The notes under the pieces are model-generated. The model was not told where the DNA came from and searched no databases. It saw only the letters and a list, made by a program, of their open reading frames with translations. A DNA stretch of 43,598 bases from a virus. Shown here one piece after another: positions 238 through 43,598 of the stretch (positions within the stretch are counted from its first letter, which is position 1; each line of letters begins with the position of its first letter). A program made the position numbers and the translations under genes. The stretch lies in the IMG/VR virus record IMGVR_UViG_3300048837_000776, positions 1 to 43,598 of that record; one strand, given 5' to 3'.

Positions 238-286
238 GCCCGCCGCTCGGAGTCGAACCGAGAGGATGGGTTCGTGAGGCCCATCC
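238..286 (-). ncRNA. tRNA-like element 1: T arm plus adjacent helix, upstream of the primase
   Basis: Read on the minus strand, a 7-bp helix GGATGGG/CCCATCC (286-280 with 270-264) closes a 9-nt loop. One T (263) follows, then a perfect T arm: CTCGG, loop TTCGACT, CCGAG (262-246). The next bases CGGCGGG (245-239) stand where an acceptor 3' strand would be. Unlike elements 2 and 3, no clean 5' acceptor strand lies just upstream. The best partner, CCCGCT, is about 80 nt away beyond a terminator hairpin. A canonical cloverleaf does not form: no D stem can be drawn, and the best anticodon loop (CAC) has a C-A mismatch at its base. The element ends 48 nt before the primase GTG, a position like that of the two rightward copies. 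A relic tRNA 3' half, as in an attachment site, is an alternative, but no integrase gene is present. Confidence 0.5.
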
Positions 287-303
287 CGTATCCCTACCGT
301 CAG

Positions 304-324
304 AAAAGCCCGCCCTTGCGGGGC
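304..324 (-). terminator. Rho-independent terminator after the HTH regulator gene
   Basis: On the minus strand GCCC(C)GC, loop AAGG, GCGGGC forms a GC-rich hairpin with one bulged C, followed by TTTT. It lies 40 nt after the stop of the regulator gene and just before tRNA-like element 1. It could end regulator transcripts or attenuate read-through into the primase. Confidence 0.6.
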
Positions 325-2158: not shown

Positions 2159-2266
2159 GGAAGAGTAAAGGATGAGAGGATCAGGTATTGTCGGTGGGTT
2201 CGTTTTCTGCGTTTTCGCTCCCGCCAACAGTGCTCCCTCTCTGCGGGTTCGACTCCTGCCTCTTCC
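2159..2266 (+). ncRNA. tRNA-like element 2: acceptor stem, T arm, no D arm, long central helix
   Basis: GGAAGAG (2159-2165) pairs perfectly with CTCTTCC (2260-2266) as a 7-bp acceptor stem. The T arm GCGGG-TTCGACT-CCTGC (2243-2259) abuts it as in tRNA. The D arm is replaced by 8 nt (TAAAGGAT, 2166-2173). Then GAGAGG (2174-2179) pairs with CCTCTC (2236-2241), 1 nt before the T arm. A further 11-position helix (2188-2198 with 2220-2230, one mismatch) is capped by a large loop that can form a GCG-TTTT-CGC mini-hairpin. No normal anticodon arm fits and no CCA is encoded. The ends resemble selC tRNA (GGAAGA..., GGTTCGACTCCTG), but the body does not. It ends 47 nt before the ATG at 2314. It may be an RNA processed like tRNA or a leader that mimics tRNA. 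Base pairing is read by eye. Confidence 0.7.
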
Positions 2267-2313: not shown

Positions 2314-3861
2314 ATGTACGGCAAACTGTTTCTCTACACCCCCCGCAGCGGTTCCAAAATCTTCGCTCAGTCCCAGTGCCCCTCCGAACCCCGATGGGCC
2401 GTCGAAACGCTCACAAACGGCAGCCATGTCATCCACTACACCGCGCCCCTCTACCGCGTCCCCGCTGCGTCCCGCGCCCATCGCGCCGATGTTGGCGCAA
2501 TCCTCCGCCATGTCGCCCGCACCGCAGACCGCTCCTCGAAACCGCGCAGCCTTCTCGCATGGGATGATTGCGGCGAGATATCGTTCGTTGCGGACGAAAA
2601 GAGCATGAACGAGATCTCGCGCATCGTTCGCAAATTCAATCGTGGCGAAGGGCTGCTATACGCCAAGCAGCACCAGTACGAAGAGGAGGTCGTCTTCGGC
2701 GATGGTGGCGGAGTAGATACGCGCCTTTTCGCGCATCCCTCTGGAGCGATCCTTCATGTAACGAATGGATACGTCAGCACACACCCCGCCCACAAAAGCC
2801 GCGCCACCTTTGAAGCCGAACCCGCCACGTTCGGCGATTTGCCCGGCTCCGACGCTCAGTATGTAACCAGCGAAGTTCTTGACACCCTCTGGAATGGGAT
2901 GTCTGCCCCCGTTCCGACCGAGGAAGAAGCCGAGCAGATCGTCGAACGCTTTGCCGCATGGATGAACTGGCTCTCGACCGAGCCACACGCTTCCGATATG
3001 AAAAAAATGCTCCTCGACCCCACGGGGCAGGAATTGCAGGACTGGGCGAACGAGCATTTCGAGAAACACCACCGCATCTCGCTCGGGTTCTATCCCGAGT
3101 GGCCCGCCCACTGGGTCGATGAATCGAAAGAGGACGAGGACGAGATCGCATCCGAACCGACCCCCGAACCCATCGCAGAGATCGCTCCCGAACCCACGGA
3201 AGAAGAGGTCGCAGCGCAAAAAAAAAATGAGGAAGACGCGGCGTTTGCGGAAACTTGGCGCGAACATGTTCGCGGGCAGATCGGCCATTGGATGGCGGCG
3301 AATTTCCGTAATTCTTATCCTCGCTTGGATTCTGGCACGGATGTAGTCGAGGCTCACGCCGAGATTTGCCGTCGCGTTGCGGGCATGTGGGCAGGATGGT
3401 CGAATATGTGGTGGAGATCTCCAGACATTTACTCCCGCGCCATCGATGGAGACGGGTTGTATCCTGCGAACCTTCCGATGCTCCCTCGCCGCGAAGAGGG
3501 CGACAGTCCTAATGACGACGGGTGGACAGAATGGCTTGGAGATCTCAGCCCAAAGCAACTGCTTGCTTTCTTGCTCTACACCTCGGAGGTGGAAGGCAAC
3601 GAGGCAGACTGGGACATCGTTGGGTTCAACACCAACGCCCCCGACGACTGGAAAAAAACAATCAATGCGCTGTCCCATGCCTTCCCTTTCCCGTTCGCCC
3701 ACATGGGGCTTGAACCCCACCCCACCAAAAAGGAGCGATGGGTTCTGAAAAGCTGGCACGATTTTTACCTAAATCGTCGCCGTCTCATCCTTCCGCGATG
3801 GGATCTGTTGCGCCGCCACTTCGCCGCGCTGGTGAAGATGGCAGAACACGCCCCTGAGTGA
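2314..3861 (+). CDS. Unrecognised large early protein, 515 residues, possible fusion
   Basis: Begins MYGKLFLYTPRSGSKIFAQ after the repeated leader. The first 57 residues are followed by H-R-A-D-V-G-A, encoded by an exact copy (2483-2498) of the noncoding leader hairpin at 1868. The N-terminal part may therefore have been joined by recombination at such a leader. Residues about 90-265 are an alpha/beta-looking segment. Residues about 272-305 are a Pro-Glu linker (E-P-T-P-E-P-I-A-E), followed by a Trp-rich C-terminal domain (W-A-G-W-S-N-M-W-W, D-W-D-I-V-G-F-N). No catalytic motif or membrane segment is apparent, and I recognise no family. It is the largest gene of the rightward operon. Confidence 0.75.
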   Translation: MYGKLFLYTPRSGSKIFAQSQCPSEPRWAVETLTNGSHVIHYTAPLYRVPAASRAHRADVGAILRHVARTADRSSKPRSLLAWDDCGEISFVADEKSMNEISRIVRKFNRGEGLLYAKQHQYEEEVVFGDGGGVDTRLFAHPSGAILHVTNGYVSTHPAHKSRATFEAEPATFGDLPGSDAQYVTSEVLDTLWNGMSAPVPTEEEAEQIVERFAAWMNWLSTEPHASDMKKMLLDPTGQELQDWANEHFEKHHRISLGFYPEWPAHWVDESKEDEDEIASEPTPEPIAEIAPEPTEEEVAAQKKNEEDAAFAETWREHVRGQIGHWMAANFRNSYPRLDSGTDVVEAHAEICRRVAGMWAGWSNMWWRSPDIYSRAIDGDGLYPANLPMLPRREEGDSPNDDGWTEWLGDLSPKQLLAFLLYTSEVEGNEADWDIVGFNTNAPDDWKKTINALSHAFPFPFAHMGLEPHPTKKERWVLKSWHDFYLNRRRLILPRWDLLRRHFAALVKMAEHAPE

Positions 3862-3895: not shown

Positions 3896-3899
3896 CTTC

Positions 3900-4003
3900 G
3901 ATGCGCCATGTGGCGAGGCCATCAGCCCGAACTATCGAGAAGTTTTCAACCTTTCGGATCGGCGGTTCGGGTGGCCTCTGTGGGTTCGACTCCCTCGCGC
4001 ATC
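3900..4003 (+). ncRNA. tRNA-like element 3: acceptor stem, T arm, no D arm, 14-bp central helix
   Basis: GATGCGC (3900-3906) pairs perfectly with GCGCATC (3997-4003). The T arm GTGGG-TTCGACT-CCCTC (3980-3996, one T-T mismatch) abuts it. The D arm is replaced by 8 nt (CATGTGGC). GAGGCCA (3915-3921) pairs with TGGCCTC (3972-3978). After a 4-nt bulge, CCCGAAC (3926-3932) pairs with GTTCGGG (3965-3971), giving 14 perfect pairs that end 1 nt before the T arm. Inside, GAGAAG and CCTTTC close a 7-nt loop TTTTCAA that looks like an anticodon loop (UUC) but is far from the T arm. The architecture matches element 2 (7-bp stem, 8-nt linker with GG, helix, 1 nt, T arm), while the sequences differ outside the T arm, so pairing is conserved by compensatory change. 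It ends 39 nt before the ATG at 4043. Confidence 0.75.
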
Positions 4004-4005
4004 TT

Positions 4006-4042
4006 GCCCCGATGGTGGGGCTTTTCGAGAAAGGTTCTTACA
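4006..4042 (+). promoter_or_regulatory. Repeated early leader, variant: GCCCC-GATGGT-GGGGC hairpin plus GAAAGGTT
   Basis: GCCCC (4006-4010) pairs with GGGGC (4017-4021), then TTTTCGAGAAAGGTTCTTACA and the ATG at 4043. The stem sequence is changed on both sides compared with the GCGCC copies, while the 6-nt loop GATGGT stays close to GATGTT. Confidence 0.5.
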
Positions 4043-4417
4043 ATGAAACAGGTTGACATCACGTTCCTCGAAACCGTTTCTAGCGCCACCCTCGCGGCTT
4101 GGCTTGACGCCTCGAACCGCGAAACCGTCCGCCTCCAGCGCGAAATCGACGCCACTCGCGCAGCAAAAAGCGCGCTGTTGAACGAGATTAGCCGCCGCAA
4201 CCGCGTGTCTGTGGCGATCCCCCCGAAGCCTGCAAACATCATCGATTCGTCGCAGACCTGCAAAAACTGCGTGCGCTTGGGGCGCATGAACGGGCATTTT
4301 GTGTGCGAAAAAGACGACGCCCTCCACCATCCAAACATGCCTCGATGCGAATCTTTTGACCCGTATCCCTCGATGTTCTTTGGGGCGGAGATCCCCGAAG
4401 CAGATACACGTCGGTAA
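4043..4417 (+). CDS. Small protein with putative zinc-binding Cys cluster, 124 residues
   Basis: Begins MKQVDITFLETVSSATLAAWLD; the ATG at 4043 follows the AAAGGTT leader. Residues about 20-50 are a likely coiled coil (R-E-T-V-R-L-Q-R-E-I-D-A-T-R-A-A-K). Residues about 72-102 carry C-K-N-C, then 10 residues to a Cys and 13 to another Cys, a C-X2-C-X10-C-X13-C pattern that could bind zinc. Such knuckles are frequent in small phage regulators and DNA-binding proteins, but this one cannot be assigned to a family. It lies just before the recT-like gene, separated by a terminator-like hairpin. Confidence 0.7.
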   Translation: MKQVDITFLETVSSATLAAWLDASNRETVRLQREIDATRAAKSALLNEISRRNRVSVAIPPKPANIIDSSQTCKNCVRLGRMNGHFVCEKDDALHHPNMPRCESFDPYPSMFFGAEIPEADTRR

Positions 4418-4488: not shown

Positions 4489-5466
4489 ATGTCAAACATC
4501 GTTCGCGCCAACCAAGGCGCACAGATCAACACCATCACCGATCTCGGACGGTTCGCGGACATGGCCGTCAAGTCGGGCATGTTCAAAGACCTCAAGACCG
4601 TGGCTGTCGCTGCGGTCAAGGCTCAGGTTGCGATGGAGCTTGGGATCAGCCCGCTTCTCGGGTTGTCAGCGATCCACGTCGTTGAAGGCCGTCCGACCCT
4701 TTCAGCCGCCATGCTCGCCGCGTTGATGAAACGCAGCGGATATTCGTGGAAGATCATCGCCCACACGGAAGAGGAGTGCAAGTTGGAGATCCGCATGGGC
4801 GGGGAGTCGCTGGGGGAGTGTGGGTTCACGCTCGGCGAGGCAAAGTCGGCGGGTCTCCTCAGTCGTCCGAACTGGTCGAAGCATCGCCGCGACATGCTCT
4901 TTGCCCGTGCGATCTCTCGCGCTGCGCGGTGGTTTGCGCCCGAGGTTGCGCTCGGCGTTTATACGCCCGACGAGATGGGCGAGATCGAAGATGACATCCC
5001 CGAATCGCCCGCACCCGTGGAGCCTGTCGAGGCCGAACCCGTCAGCGAGGTTCAGCAGTTCCGCCGCGAACTTGCAGCGCTCGCCGAAACACCGTCGGGT
5101 CGGGAGGTTATGCGGATCGCCGCCGAAAAGATCGAACCCGAATATGTTCCCGTCCTCGATGACGATGAGGAGATGCCCCTCCCCCCATCCTCGGAGATCC
5201 GCGCTCTCAATCCCCGCGCAACGCAAATCAAGCGCATTCATGCGCGGCTCCGCGAAGTCGGACTTGATCACGATCAACTCAAGGCGATGCTCCCCGAAAG
5301 TTGGTCGTTCAAGACCGCCTCGGAGTCCGACCTCGACTGCCTTGAAACTTTGATCGCGGCCCGCAGCCTCGACGAGCTTCGCCACCGTTGGGGGTTTTTG
5401 GTGAAGAACGGGCTAGAGGGTGGGCTTGAGCAGGTCAAAGATCACATGAAGGGGAGACTCACATGA
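4489..5466 (+). CDS. recT: RecT-family single-strand annealing protein
   Basis: A 325-residue protein starting MSNIVRANQGAQINT. The ATG at 4489 is preceded by GGAGG at 6 nt; the longer frame from 4447 overlaps the attenuator hairpin. The core (residues about 15-165) has the features of phage RecT-like annealing proteins: M-F-K-D-L-K...A-V-K-A-Q-V-A-M-E-L-G-I-S-P-L, then H-V-V-E-G-R-P-T-L-S-A-A-M-L-A-A-L, K-R-S-G, L-G-E-C-G-F-T-L and a final M-L-F-A-R-A-I-S-R-A-A-R-W-F. Such proteins pair complementary single strands during phage recombination and replication. The C-terminal 150 residues are Glu/Pro-rich and then helical, perhaps a partner-binding part. No RecE-type exonuclease lies next to it; nucleases are encoded about 8 kb away around the circle. 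It overlaps the next gene by ATGA. Confidence 0.82.
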   Translation: MSNIVRANQGAQINTITDLGRFADMAVKSGMFKDLKTVAVAAVKAQVAMELGISPLLGLSAIHVVEGRPTLSAAMLAALMKRSGYSWKIIAHTEEECKLEIRMGGESLGECGFTLGEAKSAGLLSRPNWSKHRRDMLFARAISRAARWFAPEVALGVYTPDEMGEIEDDIPESPAPVEPVEAEPVSEVQQFRRELAALAETPSGREVMRIAAEKIEPEYVPVLDDDEEMPLPPSSEIRALNPRATQIKRIHARLREVGLDHDQLKAMLPESWSFKTASESDLDCLETLIAARSLDELRHRWGFLVKNGLEGGLEQVKDHMKGRLT

Positions 5467-8075: not shown

Positions 8076-8402
8076 TCAACGCTTTTTTTCTTCTACCCTG
8101 TCCATGCGCTTCTCGATCCCCTCGACACGAACTTCTAGGCGGTCGATTTTTCGCTCGACTGGCGCGACGAGATCGCGGATTTCTGCGACAAGTGCGCGCT
8201 TTGCGAGCCACGCAAAAAGTCCACCCAGCCCCAAAACGACCGTCACCACCACGGGAATCAGCCATTTCAGAACGGACATATTGTAACGCAGTCCCCTGAC
8301 CACATCGAGATCGCCTGTTGAAAAATCTTTCTCCGCGCTATACGCCCCGTCCTGTGGGCGGTTCCGCATCTTCGCCATCTCCTCAACCTCCATGTTGATC
8401 AT
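8076..8402 (-). CDS. Small membrane protein with C-terminal coiled coil, haemolysin XhlA/holin-like
   Basis: A 108-residue protein starting MINMEVEEMAKMRNRPQDG. One membrane segment lies at residues about 45-68 (W-L-I-P-V-V-V-T-V-V-L-G-L-G-G-L-F-A-W-L-A). It is followed by an amphipathic coiled coil (R-K-I-D-R-L-E-V-R-V-E-G-I-E-K-R-M-D-R-V-E-E) to the end. Small membrane-plus-coiled-coil proteins of this kind (XhlA-like) are common in phage lysis modules. An internal ATG (M-S-V-L-K-W) would give a shorter 67-residue form. The start region is a 32-bp tandem duplicate. It is the last gene of the leftward unit. Confidence 0.55.
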   Translation of the reverse strand: MINMEVEEMAKMRNRPQDGAYSAEKDFSTGDLDVVRGLRYNMSVLKWLIPVVVTVVLGLGGLFAWLAKRALVAEIRDLVAPVERKIDRLEVRVEGIEKRMDRVEEKKR

Positions 8403-8434
8403 CTCGCCATCTCCTCAACCTCCATGTTGATCAT
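8371..8434 (-). repeat. 32-bp tandem duplication covering the start of the XhlA-like gene
   Basis: The sequence coding for M-I-N-M-E-V-E-E-M-A occurs twice with a 32-bp period (ATGs at 8434 and 8402). The first copy starts as ATGA over the preceding stop and encodes an 11-residue peptide that stops at the ATGA of the second copy. A coupled start unit was thus duplicated and created a minicistron. Confidence 0.75.
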
Positions 8435-8829
8435 CTCGCCACCTCGCGCACCGTCAGCGTCACCGCGCAAACCCCCACCAATCCGAGCGCAACGCCCGTC
8501 GAGATTTTCCAGCCGTCGCAGGTTGGGGGCCGACAACTTTTCCGCACCGTCGCGATCTCCAGATCCTTGGCGACCAACTTTGACGCGCAACTGTTTCGCT
8601 CGATCCGAACGAGAGATCGGGCTTCATCGCGCTCGGCCCGTGCAAGATCGCGCTCTTCGCGTCGGGTGACAAGGACACTCATCACCCGCGACCACTCCGA
8701 TCTCGGTAGCGTGATCGTCGGTTCGGGCTTCGTCGCATGAACCCCACAGGATGGGCAGGATAGCGCGAACAACCCGCCAACTGTGAACGCAAGTAGCCAC
8801 CAAAAAACAGCAGCGCGATGAAGCTTCAT
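8431..8829 (-). CDS. Spanin-like protein with N-terminal export signal and C-terminal membrane segment
   Basis: A 132-residue protein starting MKLHRAAVFWWLLAFTVGGLF. The N-terminal hydrophobic stretch ends in A-L-S-C-P-S-C, which could be a signal peptide with a lipid-modified Cys, although the lipobox is imperfect. Residues about 50-95 are a charged coiled coil (R-R-E-E-R-D-L-A-R-A-E-R-D-E-A-R). Residues about 107-127 are a membrane segment (K-I-S-T-G-V-A-L-G-L-V-G-V-C-A-V). Lipoprotein at one end and membrane anchor at the other is the plan of unimolecular spanins, which fuse inner and outer membranes at lysis. It lies directly after another spanin-like gene and overlaps it (ATGA). Confidence 0.5.
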   Translation of the reverse strand: MKLHRAAVFWWLLAFTVGGLFALSCPSCGVHATKPEPTITLPRSEWSRVMSVLVTRREERDLARAERDEARSLVRIERNSCASKLVAKDLEIATVRKSCRPPTCDGWKISTGVALGLVGVCAVTLTVREVAR

Positions 8830-11504: not shown

Positions 11505-13208
11505 TCAATAGAAGGTTGGGGAAGAAGATGACAGCGCGGTGCTGTCCATCGTTCGGTGATCGTCGAGGTAGCCCATGACATAGAGCGTCGCGCTCTCTAC
11601 CGTCCATGCGGAGTTTGAGCGCGTCGCATGGACGTACCGCGTTCCGCTGTCATCCTCTGCGCGCAGATGCCCATTTCCGTAGCCCAACACATTGCCTCCC
11701 CCCGCGATGGGTTCGATGGCAACGGTGTATTGTGGCCATTCTTTTGCCGTGGCGGACTTGTGCGACTTCATGATCGCGTAGCATGTATCCCCCTCGGCTT
11801 CAGGGGTGTAGTCGACAGCAACCCGCGTATCGAGAAGTCGGCCCGTCGGAGGACACCATGCGCTGACGTTGATGTTGTTGGTGCCGTTGTCGATGGTGAT
11901 CGCGTCGGGATCTTCCCAGTACACCCAGTCTCCGTGGGTGTAGAAAGGTTGGATTACCACAGAGGGGGTATAGGCGCTCAAGTAGATCGCGCCCACATAC
12001 AACCCGCTGTTGGTGCCCGATTCCCGCCGTCGCGAGTTGGGCGGCGACTGCGACACGAAAAGCGCAGGCGACGAACCTGGACGCGAATCAACGGCCTGTG
12101 TCAAATAGGCATACCACCATCCCGTTACATCGACGTATCCGGGGTTTGCGTTGTTCGAGGATTGGAGCGTAAGCGTGACTTCCGACGTGCCAAAATGGAC
12201 AGCCTGACCGCCAAGCGTTGCCCATAGCGGCGTTACGGCGATCTCGTCCGTGTCGTTGTATTTCAACCGCCCGCCCGTGATGACCTGATCGAAGCCGCGA
12301 AGTAGCGTTCCGAGTCGGCCCGATCTGGGGGCGTTGATATTGGGTGGGGCCGCGCTGAGAAAGGGGGCGGGATCGACGTTGATGTCGGGATGCAGGAGGA
12401 ACTTTTTGACCGTGTTGTCGATGGTCGTTGGTGCGCCAGTCGAGTAACTTCCGGGCACGGTGATATGCGCCAACACAATATCGCTGTTGGGGTCGGGCGT
12501 GCTCGGTACGGCAGGGCTTGGGTCGGGTGTGCCTACGGCGACGCGAATGTCGGGGATGATCGATTTGCGTGTATACACGCTACCCGAACTCTCCGAACCA
12601 CCCGACTCGTAGGTATACTCTGCGGTGATAGCGACCGCTCCTGGTGCGTCTCCGAAGATGATTTGATCCTTGCCGCTGCCGCCCGTCCCTTGAGAGTAAT
12701 TCCATCCGCCTACGCGATCTGCCCCCAGCTTCACTTTGAGCGTGCGCGGATCGACGCCTGCGTGTCCCAAGTCCCATGCTTTTGTTGAGCTATCGCCCGT
12801 TCCTACCGCGAACGGAGAACCCAGCGGCGTGCGAGAATACGAGGAAAGCGAGACCTTACTTGCCGAGTCGCTGTCAGACTCGGATGTCCCCGCGATATAG
12901 AGCACGTCGATCCGCGAATCGCTCGATGCGTTTTCGCTCAACGTGACTTGCTTGACCGAGGCTTGGGTGTCTTTGACGAGGTTACCCTTCCAGATCGCCG
13001 CGCCACGCGCCAGGTTCAGCACGCGACCCGACCCTGAGTAGGTGACGTTGAACCCGTCGATCACGCCGCCTTCGTTTGAGAACAGCGCAGCGACCAACTC
13101 CGCTGCATAATCCTGCGAAGTGGTCGCGACCGTGTTCAGATCTGCCGCCTCGATGCGCTGAAGACTGTTGTGATTGAATCGCTTTGGTATCGTCGATGTA
13201 TCGGCCAT
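11505..13208 (-). CDS. Tail fibre protein, 567 residues
   Basis: Begins MADTSTIPKRFNHNSLQRIEAADLN. The ATG at 13208 directly follows the stop of the preceding gene; the longer frame upstream overlaps that gene. The N-terminal 120 residues resemble baseplate-attachment parts of fibres (R-I-D-V-L-Y-I-A-G-T-S). Then come long beta-rich, Ser/Thr/Gly-rich stretches, and a C-terminal segment with G-N-G-H-L-R-A-E-D-D-S-G-T-R-Y. In contractile-tail phages the gene after baseplate J and protein I usually codes the fibre that binds the host surface. No chaperone gene of a known type follows. Confidence 0.7.
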   Translation of the reverse strand: MADTSTIPKRFNHNSLQRIEAADLNTVATTSQDYAAELVAALFSNEGGVIDGFNVTYSGSGRVLNLARGAAIWKGNLVKDTQASVKQVTLSENASSDSRIDVLYIAGTSESDSDSASKVSLSSYSRTPLGSPFAVGTGDSSTKAWDLGHAGVDPRTLKVKLGADRVGGWNYSQGTGGSGKDQIIFGDAPGAVAITAEYTYESGGSESSGSVYTRKSIIPDIRVAVGTPDPSPAVPSTPDPNSDIVLAHITVPGSYSTGAPTTIDNTVKKFLLHPDINVDPAPFLSAAPPNINAPRSGRLGTLLRGFDQVITGGRLKYNDTDEIAVTPLWATLGGQAVHFGTSEVTLTLQSSNNANPGYVDVTGWWYAYLTQAVDSRPGSSPALFVSQSPPNSRRRESGTNSGLYVGAIYLSAYTPSVVIQPFYTHGDWVYWEDPDAITIDNGTNNINVSAWCPPTGRLLDTRVAVDYTPEAEGDTCYAIMKSHKSATAKEWPQYTVAIEPIAGGGNVLGYGNGHLRAEDDSGTRYVHATRSNSAWTVESATLYVMGYLDDHRTMDSTALSSSSPTFY

Positions 13209-39952: not shown

Positions 39953-40083
39953 GGCTCTTCCTCGGGGATCGTGGCGTCGTGGATGGCTACACCAAGATCA
40001 AACAGCCCGAACCATCCGCAGATCTGCATCAGCGGGTGCGCGATAATGTTGTGAACTGCCCAGTTTTTGTAGAACCGCTTCAT
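39949..40083 (-). CDS. Small conserved phage protein, 44 residues
   Basis: Reading on the minus strand from ATG 40083: M-K-R-F-Y-K-N-W-A-V-H-N-I-I-A-H-P-L-M-Q, then I-C-G-W-F-G-L-F-D-L-G-V-A-I-H-D and a final T-I-P. The pattern F-Y-x-N-W-x-V-H-N-x-x-A-H-P-L with a later H-D-A-T-x-P is one I recognise from small uncharacterised proteins of several phages. ATGA couples it to the nuclease gene before and the membrane protein after. It may be soluble or membrane-associated. Function unknown. Confidence 0.65.
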   Translation of the reverse strand: MKRFYKNWAVHNIIAHPLMQICGWFGLFDLGVAIHDATIPEEEP

Positions 40084-40586
40084 CCTCTAACCTCCAATGC
40101 TCGCTCGATCCATGCGAGCGCTTCGCCCGAACGGATGTGTTTGTCTGTCACTTCCAAAACGATCCACCCCAGCAGAGCGGCCTCGTTCATCTTCTCTCGA
40201 TCCGCTTGGAACCCACCGCCTCGGGTATGTCGGCCCTCTGTCCAGATCCCACCGTGAACCTCGACGCCCACATAGAGGTCAGGCCAAGCGAGATCCAGCC
40301 GCCACTTTCGGGACGGGTGGAACCGAAGTTCCGTTTGTGGTTTCGGGAGCCGAGCGGCCTGTATCTGCGCGCACAGAGCTTCAACGAGAGCGGATCGAGC
40401 AGGTTGGCGAAGCGGTTCAACCTTCGTAGGTTCGGGCTTTTTCAACAGGATGTCAAGCTCCTCTTCCGCTCCCCGTTTGTAGGCTTCCAACTTCAACCGC
40501 GCTGGACTTCCCGCAGGCATCGACTTTACAAGATCACCGAGACCCACGATCTGTGCGCGCAGATAGGCGATGCGGTTTTCTGACAT
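40080..40586 (-). CDS. PD-(D/E)XK-type endonuclease-like protein, 168 residues
   Basis: Begins MSENRIAYLRAQIVGLGDLVK with GAGGAGG. The first 80 residues are helical. Residues about 84-160 fit a restriction-endonuclease-like fold often seen in phages: F-H-P-S-R-K-W-R-L-D-L-A-W-P-D, then V-G-V-E-V-H-G-G-I-W, R-H-T-R-G-G-G-F-Q-A-D and L-G-W-I-V-L-E-V-T. The D of R-L-D-L-A and the E of V-E-V-H are the likely metal ligands. It probably acts in recombination or replication with the adjacent exonuclease and primase. Confidence 0.75.
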   Translation of the reverse strand: MSENRIAYLRAQIVGLGDLVKSMPAGSPARLKLEAYKRGAEEELDILLKKPEPTKVEPLRQPARSALVEALCAQIQAARLPKPQTELRFHPSRKWRLDLAWPDLYVGVEVHGGIWTEGRHTRGGGFQADREKMNEAALLGWIVLEVTDKHIRSGEALAWIERALEVRG

Positions 40587-40595
40587 GATGCCTCC

Positions 40596-40712
40596 TCAAA
40601 AGGTCGCGACAGCCTTGGGATCGGGGCAAGGGCAAGCGATCAACCTGCCGCGATCTTCAACAAGTAGATATCCAACATCCCGAGCGTGGCGAAAGAGAAG
40701 GTACTCAACTCT
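40596..40712 (-). pseudogene. Out-of-frame C-terminal end of the DEDD exonuclease
   Basis: In the frame beside the annotated exonuclease, the minus strand reads V-E-Y-L-L-F-R-H-A-R-D-V-G-Y-L-L-V-E-D-R and ends at a TGA at 40598-40596, directly before GGAGG of the next gene. This resembles the usual C-terminal end of the exonuclease family. The annotated frame instead gives an unrelated tail and leaves a 53-nt gap. A frameshift or small deletion at about 40700-40712 is the likely cause. Confidence 0.55.
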
Positions 40713-41098
40713 TTGAGCGCCCCCTGTCGAAAGAGTTTGGGGGCATCCGCGCCGTTTCCAGTCTTCGCAAGGCCAAGGGTCGCGCCGAGAACTTCATCGA
40801 GCCGTACGCGCCTGTTTAGCGCACTTGCGACGAACCCGCAAAGATCATAGCGGGCAGGGGAGATCGCGCAGCCAGCCAGCTTTTCGATCACGGGGAGATC
40901 GTAGTGGTTGATCGCGTAGCCGACGATCAGATCTGCCTCATTTAGATACGCTGCAAGCTGATCAACCTCATCTGACGCCCACACTTTGAAGAGGTCGCGA
41001 GGATGGTAGGTGACCGCCGAACCCATCCCGGCAAGCCACGGCTGCGACCAATCGTCAACCATATCAGCCGCTTCGATGTCCACAACCACAAAAACCAT
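40640..41098 (-). CDS. DEDD-type 3'-5' exonuclease (RNase H-like), C-terminus frameshifted
   Basis: A 152-residue protein starting MVFVVVDIEAADMVDDWSQPW after GAGAGGG. Motif I is V-V-D-I-E (Asp7, Glu9). Motif II is I-V-G-Y-A-I-N-H-Y-D-L-P-V-I with its Asp. R-L-D-E-V-L-G-A-T-L-G-L-A-K-T-G-N-G-A-D-A-P-K-L precedes the position of motif III. The expected Y-C-x-x-D-V-x-x-T motif III is missing. After K-E-L the reading turns into S-T-F-S-F-A-T-L-G, while the family-like end lies in another frame. If real, the protein lacks the last catalytic Asp and may be inactive or bind only. A sequencing error is an alternative. Confidence 0.65.
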   Translation of the reverse strand: MVFVVVDIEAADMVDDWSQPWLAGMGSAVTYHPRDLFKVWASDEVDQLAAYLNEADLIVGYAINHYDLPVIEKLAGCAISPARYDLCGFVASALNRRVRLDEVLGATLGLAKTGNGADAPKLFRQGALKELSTFSFATLGMLDIYLLKIAAG

Positions 41099-41107
41099 GA
41101 CAACCCT

Positions 41108-41370
41108 CTCTGATCAACCTCTGGAGGTTGGACAAGGTTGATCACAGGTTGAACACCCTTGGGAGAGTAGGTCTGTCCAACCTGATCAACCTCTGTGGTG
41201 AAATCTTAGAAATCAAAATCAGGGTGGACGCTCGGCGCGTCACCCGCTACACGCGCGCACACACGCGCACGCGAGGAAGTAGGTTGATCAGGTTGATCAG
41301 GTTGATCATCTCCGCTTGTGGTGCGGGCGTTCAACCTGTCCAACCTCTGATCAACCTCTGGAGGTTGTAC
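41108..41370. repeat. Iteron-like cluster of AGGTTGATC / GATCAACCT, candidate replication origin
   Basis: The 9-mer AGGTTGATC occurs three times in tandem at 41281-41307 and again near 41135. Its complement occurs in TGATCAACCT at 41111, 41183 and 41348. Related AGGTTGAAC/GTCCAACCT words lie in between (41147, 41175, 41331). A 20-bp unit is repeated exactly at 41111-41130 and 41348-41367 and contains a near-palindrome CAACCTC-TG-GAGGTTG. The cluster covers the gap between the exonuclease and primase genes and the last 55 codons of the primase. Repeats of one word on both strands beside a replication gene fit a protein-binding origin. Confidence 0.6.
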
Positions 41371-43598
41371 AGCGGTCTGCTGTGTTTTTGGGGGAGGTGG
41401 GAGGTAGTATGTAACAACCTGCCCTCGATGTCCAGCACAATTGCGATCTCGTTTTCGCACCCACCCAAGTCGCTGAAAAATGATCCCGATGCGAGTTTGC
41501 GCTCGGCGATCTTGTTTGTCGCTGGTGATCTTGAGGCACTCGGACATGATCTCGCTCGGGGTCACCTGCCCCTTGCCGTCGATCCAATCCACGATCAGAG
41601 TCTCCCAAGGGTCATCGATCTGGCGAGCCGCTTGCTCGGCGCGAAACACTTCGGTTTGCGCCGCTTCGGGCCACCAGCGATCTCCGCGCCGATAGCACGC
41701 CACGGCCTCCGCCCAAAGTTGATCGCGATCCCGGGTCAATGTTTCGAGGTCAAGTTGAACACACTCGACCGGCCAATAGCGGCGACCTCCCGAGGCATCG
41801 CGGATATAGTCGTTGTGGTTGACCGACCCCGCAAAAACGCAACCGCGCGGAACCTCGACCATCGTGCGACCATACGGTGCGCGGTATCGATCTGTTGCGC
41901 TGGTGAAAAATGCCTTGGCGGTGGACGACTCGGCCCGCATCAGACTGTCCAACTCGGCCAGCTCCACAACCCACTTGCCTCGAATGTGGAGGTAGGCGTC
42001 CTTATTTTGGATATCGATCTGCGTATCCGAAAATGCTGCGCCTCCCAAAATCTTGAGGGCCGTGGATTTTCCGATCCCCTCGTTGCCCTCCAGCACGAGA
42101 ACATGATCGGCCTTGCATCCCGCTTTGAAGGCCCGCGCCACCGCTGAGATCAGCCACATCTTGCCCACAGCATCGACATATTCTGGGCCTTGGTGGACGA
42201 GGGAACGGCCCCCGAGGTAGGTGCGGAGCCACGTTTCGATCCGCTCGACCCCATCCCACCGCAAGGATGTGAGGTAGTCTCGGACAGGATGGCCGCGCTG
42301 GAACTGCGCGGCCACCAACACGGCCCCCGCGATGCCTTCTGTGGAAAGGTTGATCCCGTACTCTTCGAGTAGCCAATATCCGACGCGGATATAGTCCTCG
42401 TCGATCAACATTCGAGGAAAGGTTCGGTCGTTCGGGTCTGCGTAATCTGCGTGAAACGGTGGTTGGGTCTGAAAAGTGGGCGAGGTCGCGGACTCGTCGA
42501 AAGCCAAAACCCCCGCCCAGCGGTCGTCGTTTGCGAGGATGCGGCTGACATTGAGCGCACAGCTTTTGTAGCCGATCGCCCGTCCCTCTTTGTCGAACTT
42601 GAGAAGGAGCCGCGCCTTCCATTCTTGCGAAGCCTCCGCGTTTTCTGCCGCAGTGTCGTTTTTTTTCTCTGCCGAGGGTCGTGTTTTCGGAGCGGAGGAT
42701 GGGTCTCGGTACGATGGATCGTAGCCGCCAGTGCAAGAGGATATCGCCGCCTCGATGGTTCCCTCCCCGTATGTCCGTCCGTCCGCATGATGTCGCTTGT
42801 CCCACTTGTCGCGCATTAGACCAGACGAGCGGAATATGCGATCCATCTGCGCGGCATCACGATTTGTCCACCACGCGAGCAGGTTGCACAACGCGAGGTC
42901 AGCCGCACTGTGGTCTGATCCCCCGTCGCCTCCGAACAGCCGCGCAAACTCCGAACCAGCCGCGCTTGATCTGATCTTCTCGATCAACTCCTGATCGGAT
43001 ATCGACGCGGGGAGGCTGGACTTTTTTGGCGCTGCTTTCTTGGGGGCGTCGGGCTTTGCAAAATACCGCTGGTGCATCCAATCGACAAACCCTTGCTCGG
43101 GTTCGATATCGCCCTCGCGTTTGTAGATGCGGTTGCCGGTCACGGTCAAAAACCTCGGCGACGTGTGATCATACGCCTCGATCCAGCTGTGGGTCGTCCC
43201 CTTGCCAGCGCGAGGAAGCACCCCTCGCGTGAAGATGCGATAGCCCTTTCCGCTTGGACTGATTTCCACATAGCACTGGCACCGTCCAGCCTCAAAGAGG
43301 ATCTCCCCCGCGATCCCCTCGCGATCCTTCACGTCCTTTACATCGAGATCGTATCCGATCCAATCCTCGACCAACACCACCCCGACCCCGTCGATGGCGT
43401 AACTGCCGCGTCCGTTTTCCCACGCAGCACAAGCAGCCTCGAACGAGGCCCATGTTTTGGGGTCGTTCGACTTCGCGTTTTGGCGCGGACTGGCCGCATT
43501 TTTCGGAACCTTTGTCGTCTTAAACTCGCCGAGCTTCTTGTCGAGCCGCTGCTCCAACTTCCACCCCACCCAACTGCCCGTCAGGGTGAGGTTTGGGG
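41206..43598 (-). CDS. Primase-helicase: AEP-type primase/polymerase plus VapE/VirE-like SF3 ATPase (main part)
   Basis: With the 190-1 segment the protein has 813 residues. The N-terminal third is like the bifunctional primase-polymerase (AEP): W-A-S-F-E-A-A, G-V-G-V-V-L-V-E-D-W-I-G-Y-D-L-D with the acidic pair, C-Y-V-E-I-S-P-S-G-K-G-Y-R-I-F and H-T-S-P-R-F-L-T-V-T-G. The C-terminal part is a VapE-like ATPase: Y-L-T-S-L-R-W-D-G, Walker A L-E-G-N-E-G-I-G-K-S-T, V-V-E-L-A-E-L-D as Walker B, and A-P-Y-G-R-T, with F-A-G-S-V-N-H-N and G-G-R-R-Y-W-P-V as sensor region. It likely starts and unwinds phage DNA replication. The last 55 residues are repeat-encoded (D-Q-P-D-Q-P-D-Q-P) and probably unstructured. 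Confidence 0.85.
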   Translation of the reverse strand, partial: PNLTLTGSWVGWKLEQRLDKKLGEFKTTKVPKNAASPRQNAKSNDPKTWASFEAACAAWENGRGSYAIDGVGVVLVEDWIGYDLDVKDVKDREGIAGEILFEAGRCQCYVEISPSGKGYRIFTRGVLPRAGKGTTHSWIEAYDHTSPRFLTVTGNRIYKREGDIEPEQGFVDWMHQRYFAKPDAPKKAAPKKSSLPASISDQELIEKIRSSAAGSEFARLFGGDGGSDHSAADLALCNLLAWWTNRDAAQMDRIFRSSGLMRDKWDKRHHADGRTYGEGTIEAAISSCTGGYDPSYRDPSSAPKTRPSAEKKNDTAAENAEASQEWKARLLLKFDKEGRAIGYKSCALNVSRILANDDRWAGVLAFDESATSPTFQTQPPFHADYADPNDRTFPRMLIDEDYIRVGYWLLEEYGINLSTEGIAGAVLVAAQFQRGHPVRDYLTSLRWDGVERIETWLRTYLGGRSLVHQGPEYVDAVGKMWLISAVARAFKAGCKADHVLVLEGNEGIGKSTALKILGGAAFSDTQIDIQNKDAYLHIRGKWVVELAELDSLMRAESSTAKAFFTSATDRYRAPYGRTMVEVPRGCVFAGSVNHNDYIRDASGGRRYWPVECVQLDLETLTRDRDQLWAEAVACYRRGDRWWPEAAQTEVFRAEQAARQIDDPWETLIVDWIDGKGQVTPSEIMSECLKITSDKQDRRAQTRIGIIFQRLGWVRKRDRNCAGHRGQVVTYYLPPPPKTQQTAVQPPEVDQRLDRLNARTTSGDDQPDQPDQPTSSRARVCARVAGDAPSVHPDFDF
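41248..41273. repeat. Alternating purine-pyrimidine tract
   Basis: Twenty-six bases alternate strictly between pyrimidine and purine, mostly CG and CA steps, in the middle of the iteron-like cluster and within the 3' end of the primase gene. Such tracts can adopt Z-DNA under negative supercoiling. Confidence 0.6.
43458..43598. repeat. Terminal overlap, right copy (pairs with 1-141)
   Basis: Identical to 1-141 except T43472 against A15. The primase codon is AAG (Lys) here and ATG (Met) at the other end, so either the phage population is mixed at this site or one copy has an error near a contig end. Confidence 0.9.

Follow-up and report, generated by a model that had tools for sequence, protein, structure and literature searches.

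Paralogous tRNA-like RNAs without a D arm in the early region of a phage genome

The intergenic segment at positions 3900-4003 of a virus record from IMG/VR resembles a tRNA in its acceptor stem and T arm and departs from one in nearly everything between them, which raises the question of what kind of RNA it encodes and how such an RNA might act. The window analyzed here is the whole record of 43,598 bases, which has a 141-bp direct terminal repeat and is therefore probably a complete phage genome. A first-pass annotation, made from the sequence alone, had called it a phage, and this label is borne out by genes for terminase, portal, prohead protease, SU10-type major capsid protein and baseplate J; a RecT-like annealing protein and a VapE/NrS-1-type primase-helicase are also encoded. 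The primase-helicase gene spans the terminal repeat (1-189 and 41206-43598), with a likely GTG start at 189 on the minus strand and AAAGGAGG upstream of it, so the ORF listed at 41206-43569 is incomplete. The replication genes (window 40080-43569) recur with approximately 90-97% protein identity in a 24-kb IMG/VR fragment (L008/L033) that is without the window's structural genes, and this sharing of replication genes only is a recent module exchange. An exact 32-bp tandem duplication is located at 8372-8435, at the junction of the ORFs 8076-8402 and 8399-8590 (minus strand).

The segment, referred to here as E3, is part of the early region, where it is located between the genes 2314-3861 and 4043-4417. 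Like E3, the two further elements described below, E2 and E1, are found between co-directional early genes. E2 and E3 are each located directly 3' of a hairpin that trails the upstream gene and directly 5' of the leader hairpin of the next gene, and folding of the whole gap around E2 keeps the three structures separate. Leader hairpins of the form GCGCC-N6-GGCGC recur before early genes at 1152-1167, 1868-1883 and 2277-2292, and the variant GCCCC-GAUGGU-GGGGC follows E3 at 4006-4021. Since this variant corresponds to the leader hairpins found at other early genes, it was rejected as a terminator of E3. The recurrent leader as a whole (1152-1182, 1868-1899, 2277-2308 and 4006-4036) is composed of a 5-bp hairpin with a 6-nt loop, about 7 nt, GAAAGGTT and the start codon, the stem being GCGCC/GGCGC and once GCCCC/GGGGC. 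It could act as a translational or DNA operator element common to these genes; a search for its pattern in IMG/VR returned no match.

E3 comprises 104 nt on the plus strand. Its minimum-energy fold (-43.6 kcal/mol, z = -2.5), which is also that of the isolated intergenic region, is the one that the first-pass annotation had described and not a rival structure: a 7-bp acceptor stem, eight unpaired nucleotides, helix A, the bulge AUCA, helix B, an inner hairpin, a single U and the T arm. The acceptor stem, GATGCGC/GCGCATC (3900-3906 with 3997-4003), consists of seven Watson-Crick pairs, six of which are changed on both sides relative to E2. As had been proposed, the D arm is replaced by eight nucleotides containing GG, the linker CAUGUGGC (3907-3914); it has the same length in E2, and its GG, which is present in all three elements, could serve as the equivalent of G18-G19. 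The long central arm (3915-3978), with pair probabilities near 1, consists of helix A (3915-3920/3973-3978), the bulge AUCA (3921-3924), helix B (3925-3933/3964-3972) and an apical part (3934-3963), and the AUCA-G at the bulge is identical in E2. A single U (3979) lies between helix A and the T stem. The T arm GUGGG-UUCGACU-CCCUC (3980-3996) is supported by both sequence and fold.

The perfect acceptor pair, the canonical T loop TTCGACT (3985-3991) and, as sequence, the two perfect 7-bp helices GAGGCCA/TGGCCTC and CCCGAAC/GTTCGGG are all present where the earlier reading had placed them. Two of its details required revision. Both 7-bp halves of the 14-bp central helix are perfect as sequence, but the minimum-energy fold resolves them into a helix A of 6 bp, the AUCA bulge and a helix B that, with its closing G-U pairs, has 9 bp. 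Similarly, the T arm exists and has its canonical loop, but the T stem GTGGG/CCCTC contains a U-U mismatch and forms four of five pairs. When 150 nt of flanking sequence were included in the folding of E3, the central helix retained a pair probability of approximately 1.0 while that of the acceptor decreased to approximately 0.15. When the upstream sequence is randomized and the T arm kept constant, the layout of acceptor and helix A arises with P ~0.0015 for E3 and ~0.0009 for E2.

The window contains three copies of the 11-mer GGTTCGACTCC against 0.04 expected (P ~1e-5), and two of the three belong to elements of equal plan and spacings, namely E3 and E2. E2 (2159-2266, plus strand) is 108 nt long, is directly followed by U6 and has the topology and spacing of E3: acceptor GGAAGAG/CTCTTCC, the 8-nt linker UAAAGGAU (2166-2173), helix A, AUCA, helix B, one U and a T arm that is perfect when one G-U is counted. 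Its apical loop, UUCGUUUUCUGCGUUUUCGCU (2199-2219), has GUUUUC..UUUCG in common with E3 in the structural alignment. The E2 fold reaches -44.6 kcal/mol (z = -3.8), and none of 200 shuffles was as good. In both elements, G1 pairs with C72, the T stem adjoins the acceptor without an intervening nucleotide, the T loop follows the consensus and the linker contains GG. A strict descriptor of this plan found only E2 and E3 in the window; simulated genomes averaged 0.33 matches and 19 of 300 had two or more, and by itself this descriptor is not decisive in separating the two elements from chance.

The decisive evidence comes from a covariance model built from E2 alone and run unfiltered over the window, for which E3 was the first non-self match, over all 108 positions, with 44.8 bits (E = 2.2e-10). 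The two elements were aligned structurally through this search; a MAFFT alignment was wrong and was set aside. Between E2 and E3, 96.9% of the cells pair and 18 of the 32 pairs are changed on both sides, compared to only 1-3 double changes in controls in which the partners were slid by 1-3 positions; these pair counts lean towards structure, as the alignment is fitted to it, although the model knew E2 only and the double changes were not made by the model. The change that preserves structure, which had been named beforehand as a test of the element, is thus found between the two copies. Overall identity is 45%, with 36% in paired and 59% in unpaired columns, which indicates that structure and loops are conserved; the conserved unpaired features are AUCA-G at the bulge, the apical GUUUUC..UUUCG, the T loop and the U that precedes the T stem. 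Ordinary tRNAs in the fetched contigs scored 15-25 bits on the family models and the best genome tRNA, a tRNA-Ser, 35 bits, so the link between E2 and E3 exceeds what a shared tRNA top half would give. E2 and E3 are phage RNAs under selection and paralogs of each other; they are built on the acceptor/T-arm half of tRNA, and a long bulged hairpin takes the place of the decoding half.

A possible short third member, E1 (239-304, minus strand), is positioned upstream of the primase gene. It consists of a 7-bp hairpin GGATGGG/CCCATCC, a single U and a perfect T arm CUCGG-UUCGACU-CCGAG, with a weak acceptor (six of seven pairs, with G-U). E1 is the third-best match of the E2 model (14.6 bits, E = 0.07) and the fourth with the model of E2 and E3 (13.4 bits, E = 0.09), and its own fold (z = 0.27) is not better than shuffles. 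Its membership in the family is doubtful.

We compared the elements to known RNA classes. ARAGORN found no tRNA and no tmRNA in the window, and no Rfam family reached its gathering score there. Together with the fold, these scans agree with the plan given by the first-pass annotation, in which there is no tag frame and no usable anticodon arm. Regarding tRNA, a 7-bp acceptor stacked on a 5-bp T stem with a TTCRANY loop is present (with the one mismatch in E3), but the Rfam tRNA model gives only 18.3 bits on E2 against a cut-off of 29, the D arm is absent and the arm is long and bulged. The UUC within UUUUCAA of E3 was rejected as an anticodon, since no corresponding anticodon stem exists in E2 and the arm does not have the form of a 5-bp anticodon arm. 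The tRNA-Sec model (RF01852) scores 21.9 bits on E3 (3899-4004, lax thresholds), below its cut-off of 47, and the alignment contains insertions and broken pairs. For tmRNA, in addition to the lack of an ARAGORN or Rfam match, the third pair of the acceptor is A-U in E2 and U-A in E3, and not G3-U70. The mascRNA/menRNA model (RF01684) aligns end to end with E1 at 16.5 bits against a gathering score of 42.5 and has no match to E2 or E3. C4 RNA, a structure of three stem-loops which to our knowledge lacks a tRNA T arm, has no match in the window at gathering and none over E2 or E3 at a lax E-value. Bacterial Y RNA (YrlA) gave no match, and the ends of the elements form an acceptor stem rather than a Ro-binding stem; in the 30 protein entries scanned with Pfam, there was no Ro (TROVE) domain. 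By the tests applied, E2 and E3 are not tRNA, tRNA-Sec, tmRNA, mascRNA, C4 or Y RNA.

Homologs were sought in several collections. Exact patterns of the family in IMG/VR and GTDB contigs revealed only ordinary tRNAs, other tRNA-like genes and coding matches, while the matches of BLASTN in a phage collection were all either T arms of ordinary tRNAs or short and unannotated. Covariance model R2, run with strict filters over 981 genomes of three phyla, had one match at threshold, a tRNA-Ser. No viral relatives of the proteins encoded at 2314-3861, 4043-4417 and 4489-5466 (RecT-like) were found in IMG/VR, none of the first two were found in INPHARED, and the distant terminase relatives (L002-L007) and the replication-gene fragment (L008) do not cover the early region. 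Given an early region without a sampled relative and the strict filters of the genome search, the absence of homologs is weak evidence. The earlier statement that no phage RNA with such a plan is known to have been described agrees with the searches of phage, viral and genome collections and of Rfam, none of which gave one.

Two kinds of tRNA-like gene missed by ARAGORN were encountered in these contigs. An initiator-like tRNA occurs in two IMG/VR contigs, with two copies in one (L012 1400-1474, minus; L014 937-1011, plus; L059 1501-1566, minus); it has the acceptor CGCAGGG..CCCTGCA-ACCA with a C1-A72 mismatch, CAT in the loop CTCATAC, a normal T arm and a D arm shrunk to GGGA-CGG-TCCC. A 70-nt gene (L023 10194-10263, minus, identical to L060 1501-1570) combines the acceptor GGGGCTG/CAGCTCC, with G3-U70, a D-like arm GCGA-GAGG-TCGC and a T arm, and has no clear anticodon. 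G3-U70 is also present in E. coli tmRNA.

Based on position and strand, E2 and E3 would be transcribed with the flanking early genes. The explanation that we favor, with a confidence that is evenly balanced, is that both are tRNA-top-half RNAs cut from the early transcript by host RNase P and RNase Z, with E3 perhaps acting as an antisense RNA. The two enzymes would recognize the tRNA-like elbow and acceptor, and predicted RNase P cuts at the 5' ends of the acceptor stems (2158/2159 for E2 and 3899/3900 for E3) would separate upstream from downstream mRNA and release a stable RNA. The proposal is based on the precedent of mascRNA/menRNA and on the GG in the linkers of E1, E2 and E3: mascRNA is excised by RNase P and RNase Z from a longer transcript and needs two guanines that contact the T loop (PMC11693755). 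Reported RNase P substrates also include the C4 antisense RNA, phage M3 RNA and pre-tmRNA (PMC11143913). Neither element has CCA or RCC 3' of its acceptor (UUUU in E2 and UUGC in E3), which counts against excision because RNase P efficiency is lower in many bacteria without it, and the poor pairing of the E3 acceptor predicted with long flanks would count against it as well. That excision is the main biochemical event may equally well prove right or wrong.

A second step was considered for E3 only. The apical-loop segment GUUUUCAACCUUUCG (3942-3956) is the reverse complement, in perfect matches of 12-13 nt, of the ribosome-binding-site (RBS) leaders of three early genes: 787-799 (13 nt; gene 801-1073), 1174-1186 (13 nt; gene 1190-1798) and 1890-1901 (12 nt; gene 1906-2115). 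These are the longest antisense matches of E3 on both strands of the window and, among 38 start regions, the strongest duplexes of its loop. In tests made post hoc, no other 104-nt stretch, among 8,611 overlapping ones, had a 13-nt match to five leaders, and the mean duplex energy over the five leaders was reached by none of 3,000 shuffles of the E3 loop; by duplex energy genome-wide, GC-rich coding stretches are equal or stronger partners. The match of E3 to its own downstream gene (4043-4417) is 8 nt only. E2 was rejected as an antisense RNA to RBS leaders, as its loop gives P ~0.6 and its best complement lies mid-gene at 12927-12939. C4 RNA provides the precedent, since its loops base-pair with the mRNAs that it targets and cover ribosome-binding sites (PMC5320573). 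By analogy, freed E3 might pair through its apical loop with the repeated early RBS leaders and lower their translation; from the complementarity we regard this step as tentative. An antisense system on a tRNA chassis, freed by host tRNA-processing enzymes and silencing several early genes together through a loop in the place of the anticodon, is likewise a speculative reading.

Among the alternatives, a free-standing decoy or mimic is the most probable, although unlikely. Here the acceptor/T-arm half would bind a host tRNA-handling factor, such as EF-Tu, a tRNA-modifying or CCA-adding enzyme or a tRNA-cleaving defense nuclease, with excision and antisense pairing being secondary. The half of the tRNA contacted by such factors is intact and its T loop matches the consensus, the two copies have diverged and are without a working anticodon, and the U6 straight after the E2 acceptor resembles the end of a terminated sRNA. 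Nevertheless, CCA is not encoded, and the central arm, the AUCA bulge and the loop motif, which a top-half decoy does not need, are also conserved. Less probable is a cis-acting leader, whose fold would be kept in the mRNA to control the downstream gene (4043-4417 for E3), for example by loop-RBS pairing or 5'-end protection. The placement of each element immediately 5' of a leader hairpin and start codon suits this idea, and pairing over 8 bp is possible between the E3 loop and the RBS that lies downstream of E3; that match is weaker than those to three other genes, and a leader would not require a complete acceptor and T arm. It is very unlikely that E2 and E3 are phage tRNA genes that are decaying or highly derived and have no function at present, as decay would break pairs, while these 45%-identical copies keep 97% of theirs with 18 double changes and have the same non-tRNA arm, which outweighs the tRNA-like T arm and acceptor and the weak Rfam scores for tRNA and tRNA-Sec. 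A chance fold in GC-rich intergenic DNA, to which the roughly 2.7 chance matches per window of a loose acceptor and T-arm descriptor might point, is already refuted by the E2-to-E3 model match (E = 2e-10), the covariation and the E2 z-score.

The searches revealed no published or database phage RNA family that combines a D-armless three-way junction with a long variable arm. As ARAGORN and Rfam miss both E2 and E3, similar elements may be unannotated in other phages. If excision and antisense pairing were both true, the phage would be using RNase P as operon punctuation and as a maturation step for a regulatory RNA.

The top half of tRNA has been borrowed by viral and cellular RNAs, including mascRNA, tmRNA and plant-virus ends. 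The tRNA-like domain of tmRNA has an acceptor, a stemless D loop containing GG, a long helix replacing the anticodon stem and a T arm. The likeness to tmRNA suggested by the first-pass annotation holds for the shape of this tRNA-like end and stops there: E2 and E3 are without tag frame, pseudoknots and the G3-U70 alanine identity pair, and their linker is shorter. D-armless mitochondrial tRNAs, e.g., tRNA-Ser (AGY), have the same order of acceptor, linker, arm and T arm; however, they still decode and have retained an anticodon stem with a 7-nt loop, whereas the arm of E2 and E3 is 14-20 bp long with a bulge and has no usable anticodon loop. The novelty of the plan stands insofar as no phage example was found in the collections searched, but comparators of closer logic are published, namely mascRNA/menRNA and the RNase P-processed C4 antisense RNA of phages. 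In mascRNA/menRNA, acceptor and T arm are intact, the D arm is reduced, the anticodon-equivalent stem is elongated and the RNA is not aminoacylated (PMC11693755). E2 and E3 resemble them in the first three of these features, and E1 in its end-to-end alignment; they differ in that mascRNA/menRNA derive from mammalian lncRNA and have a shorter arm and a four-way junction with a small D arm, in contrast to a three-way junction with a 14-20 bp bulged arm. C4 of phages P1/P7 is itself a phage RNA whose loop acts against an RBS, as the complementarity of the E3 loop to early RBS leaders would suggest for E3, but it consists of three stem-loops, and RNase P processing and pairing are only predicted for E3. 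Compared to these systems, E2 and E3 are placed among the tRNA-like structured RNAs, as RNAs in which a new arm has been added to the top half of a tRNA; the evidence for their structure is good, and their function is putative.
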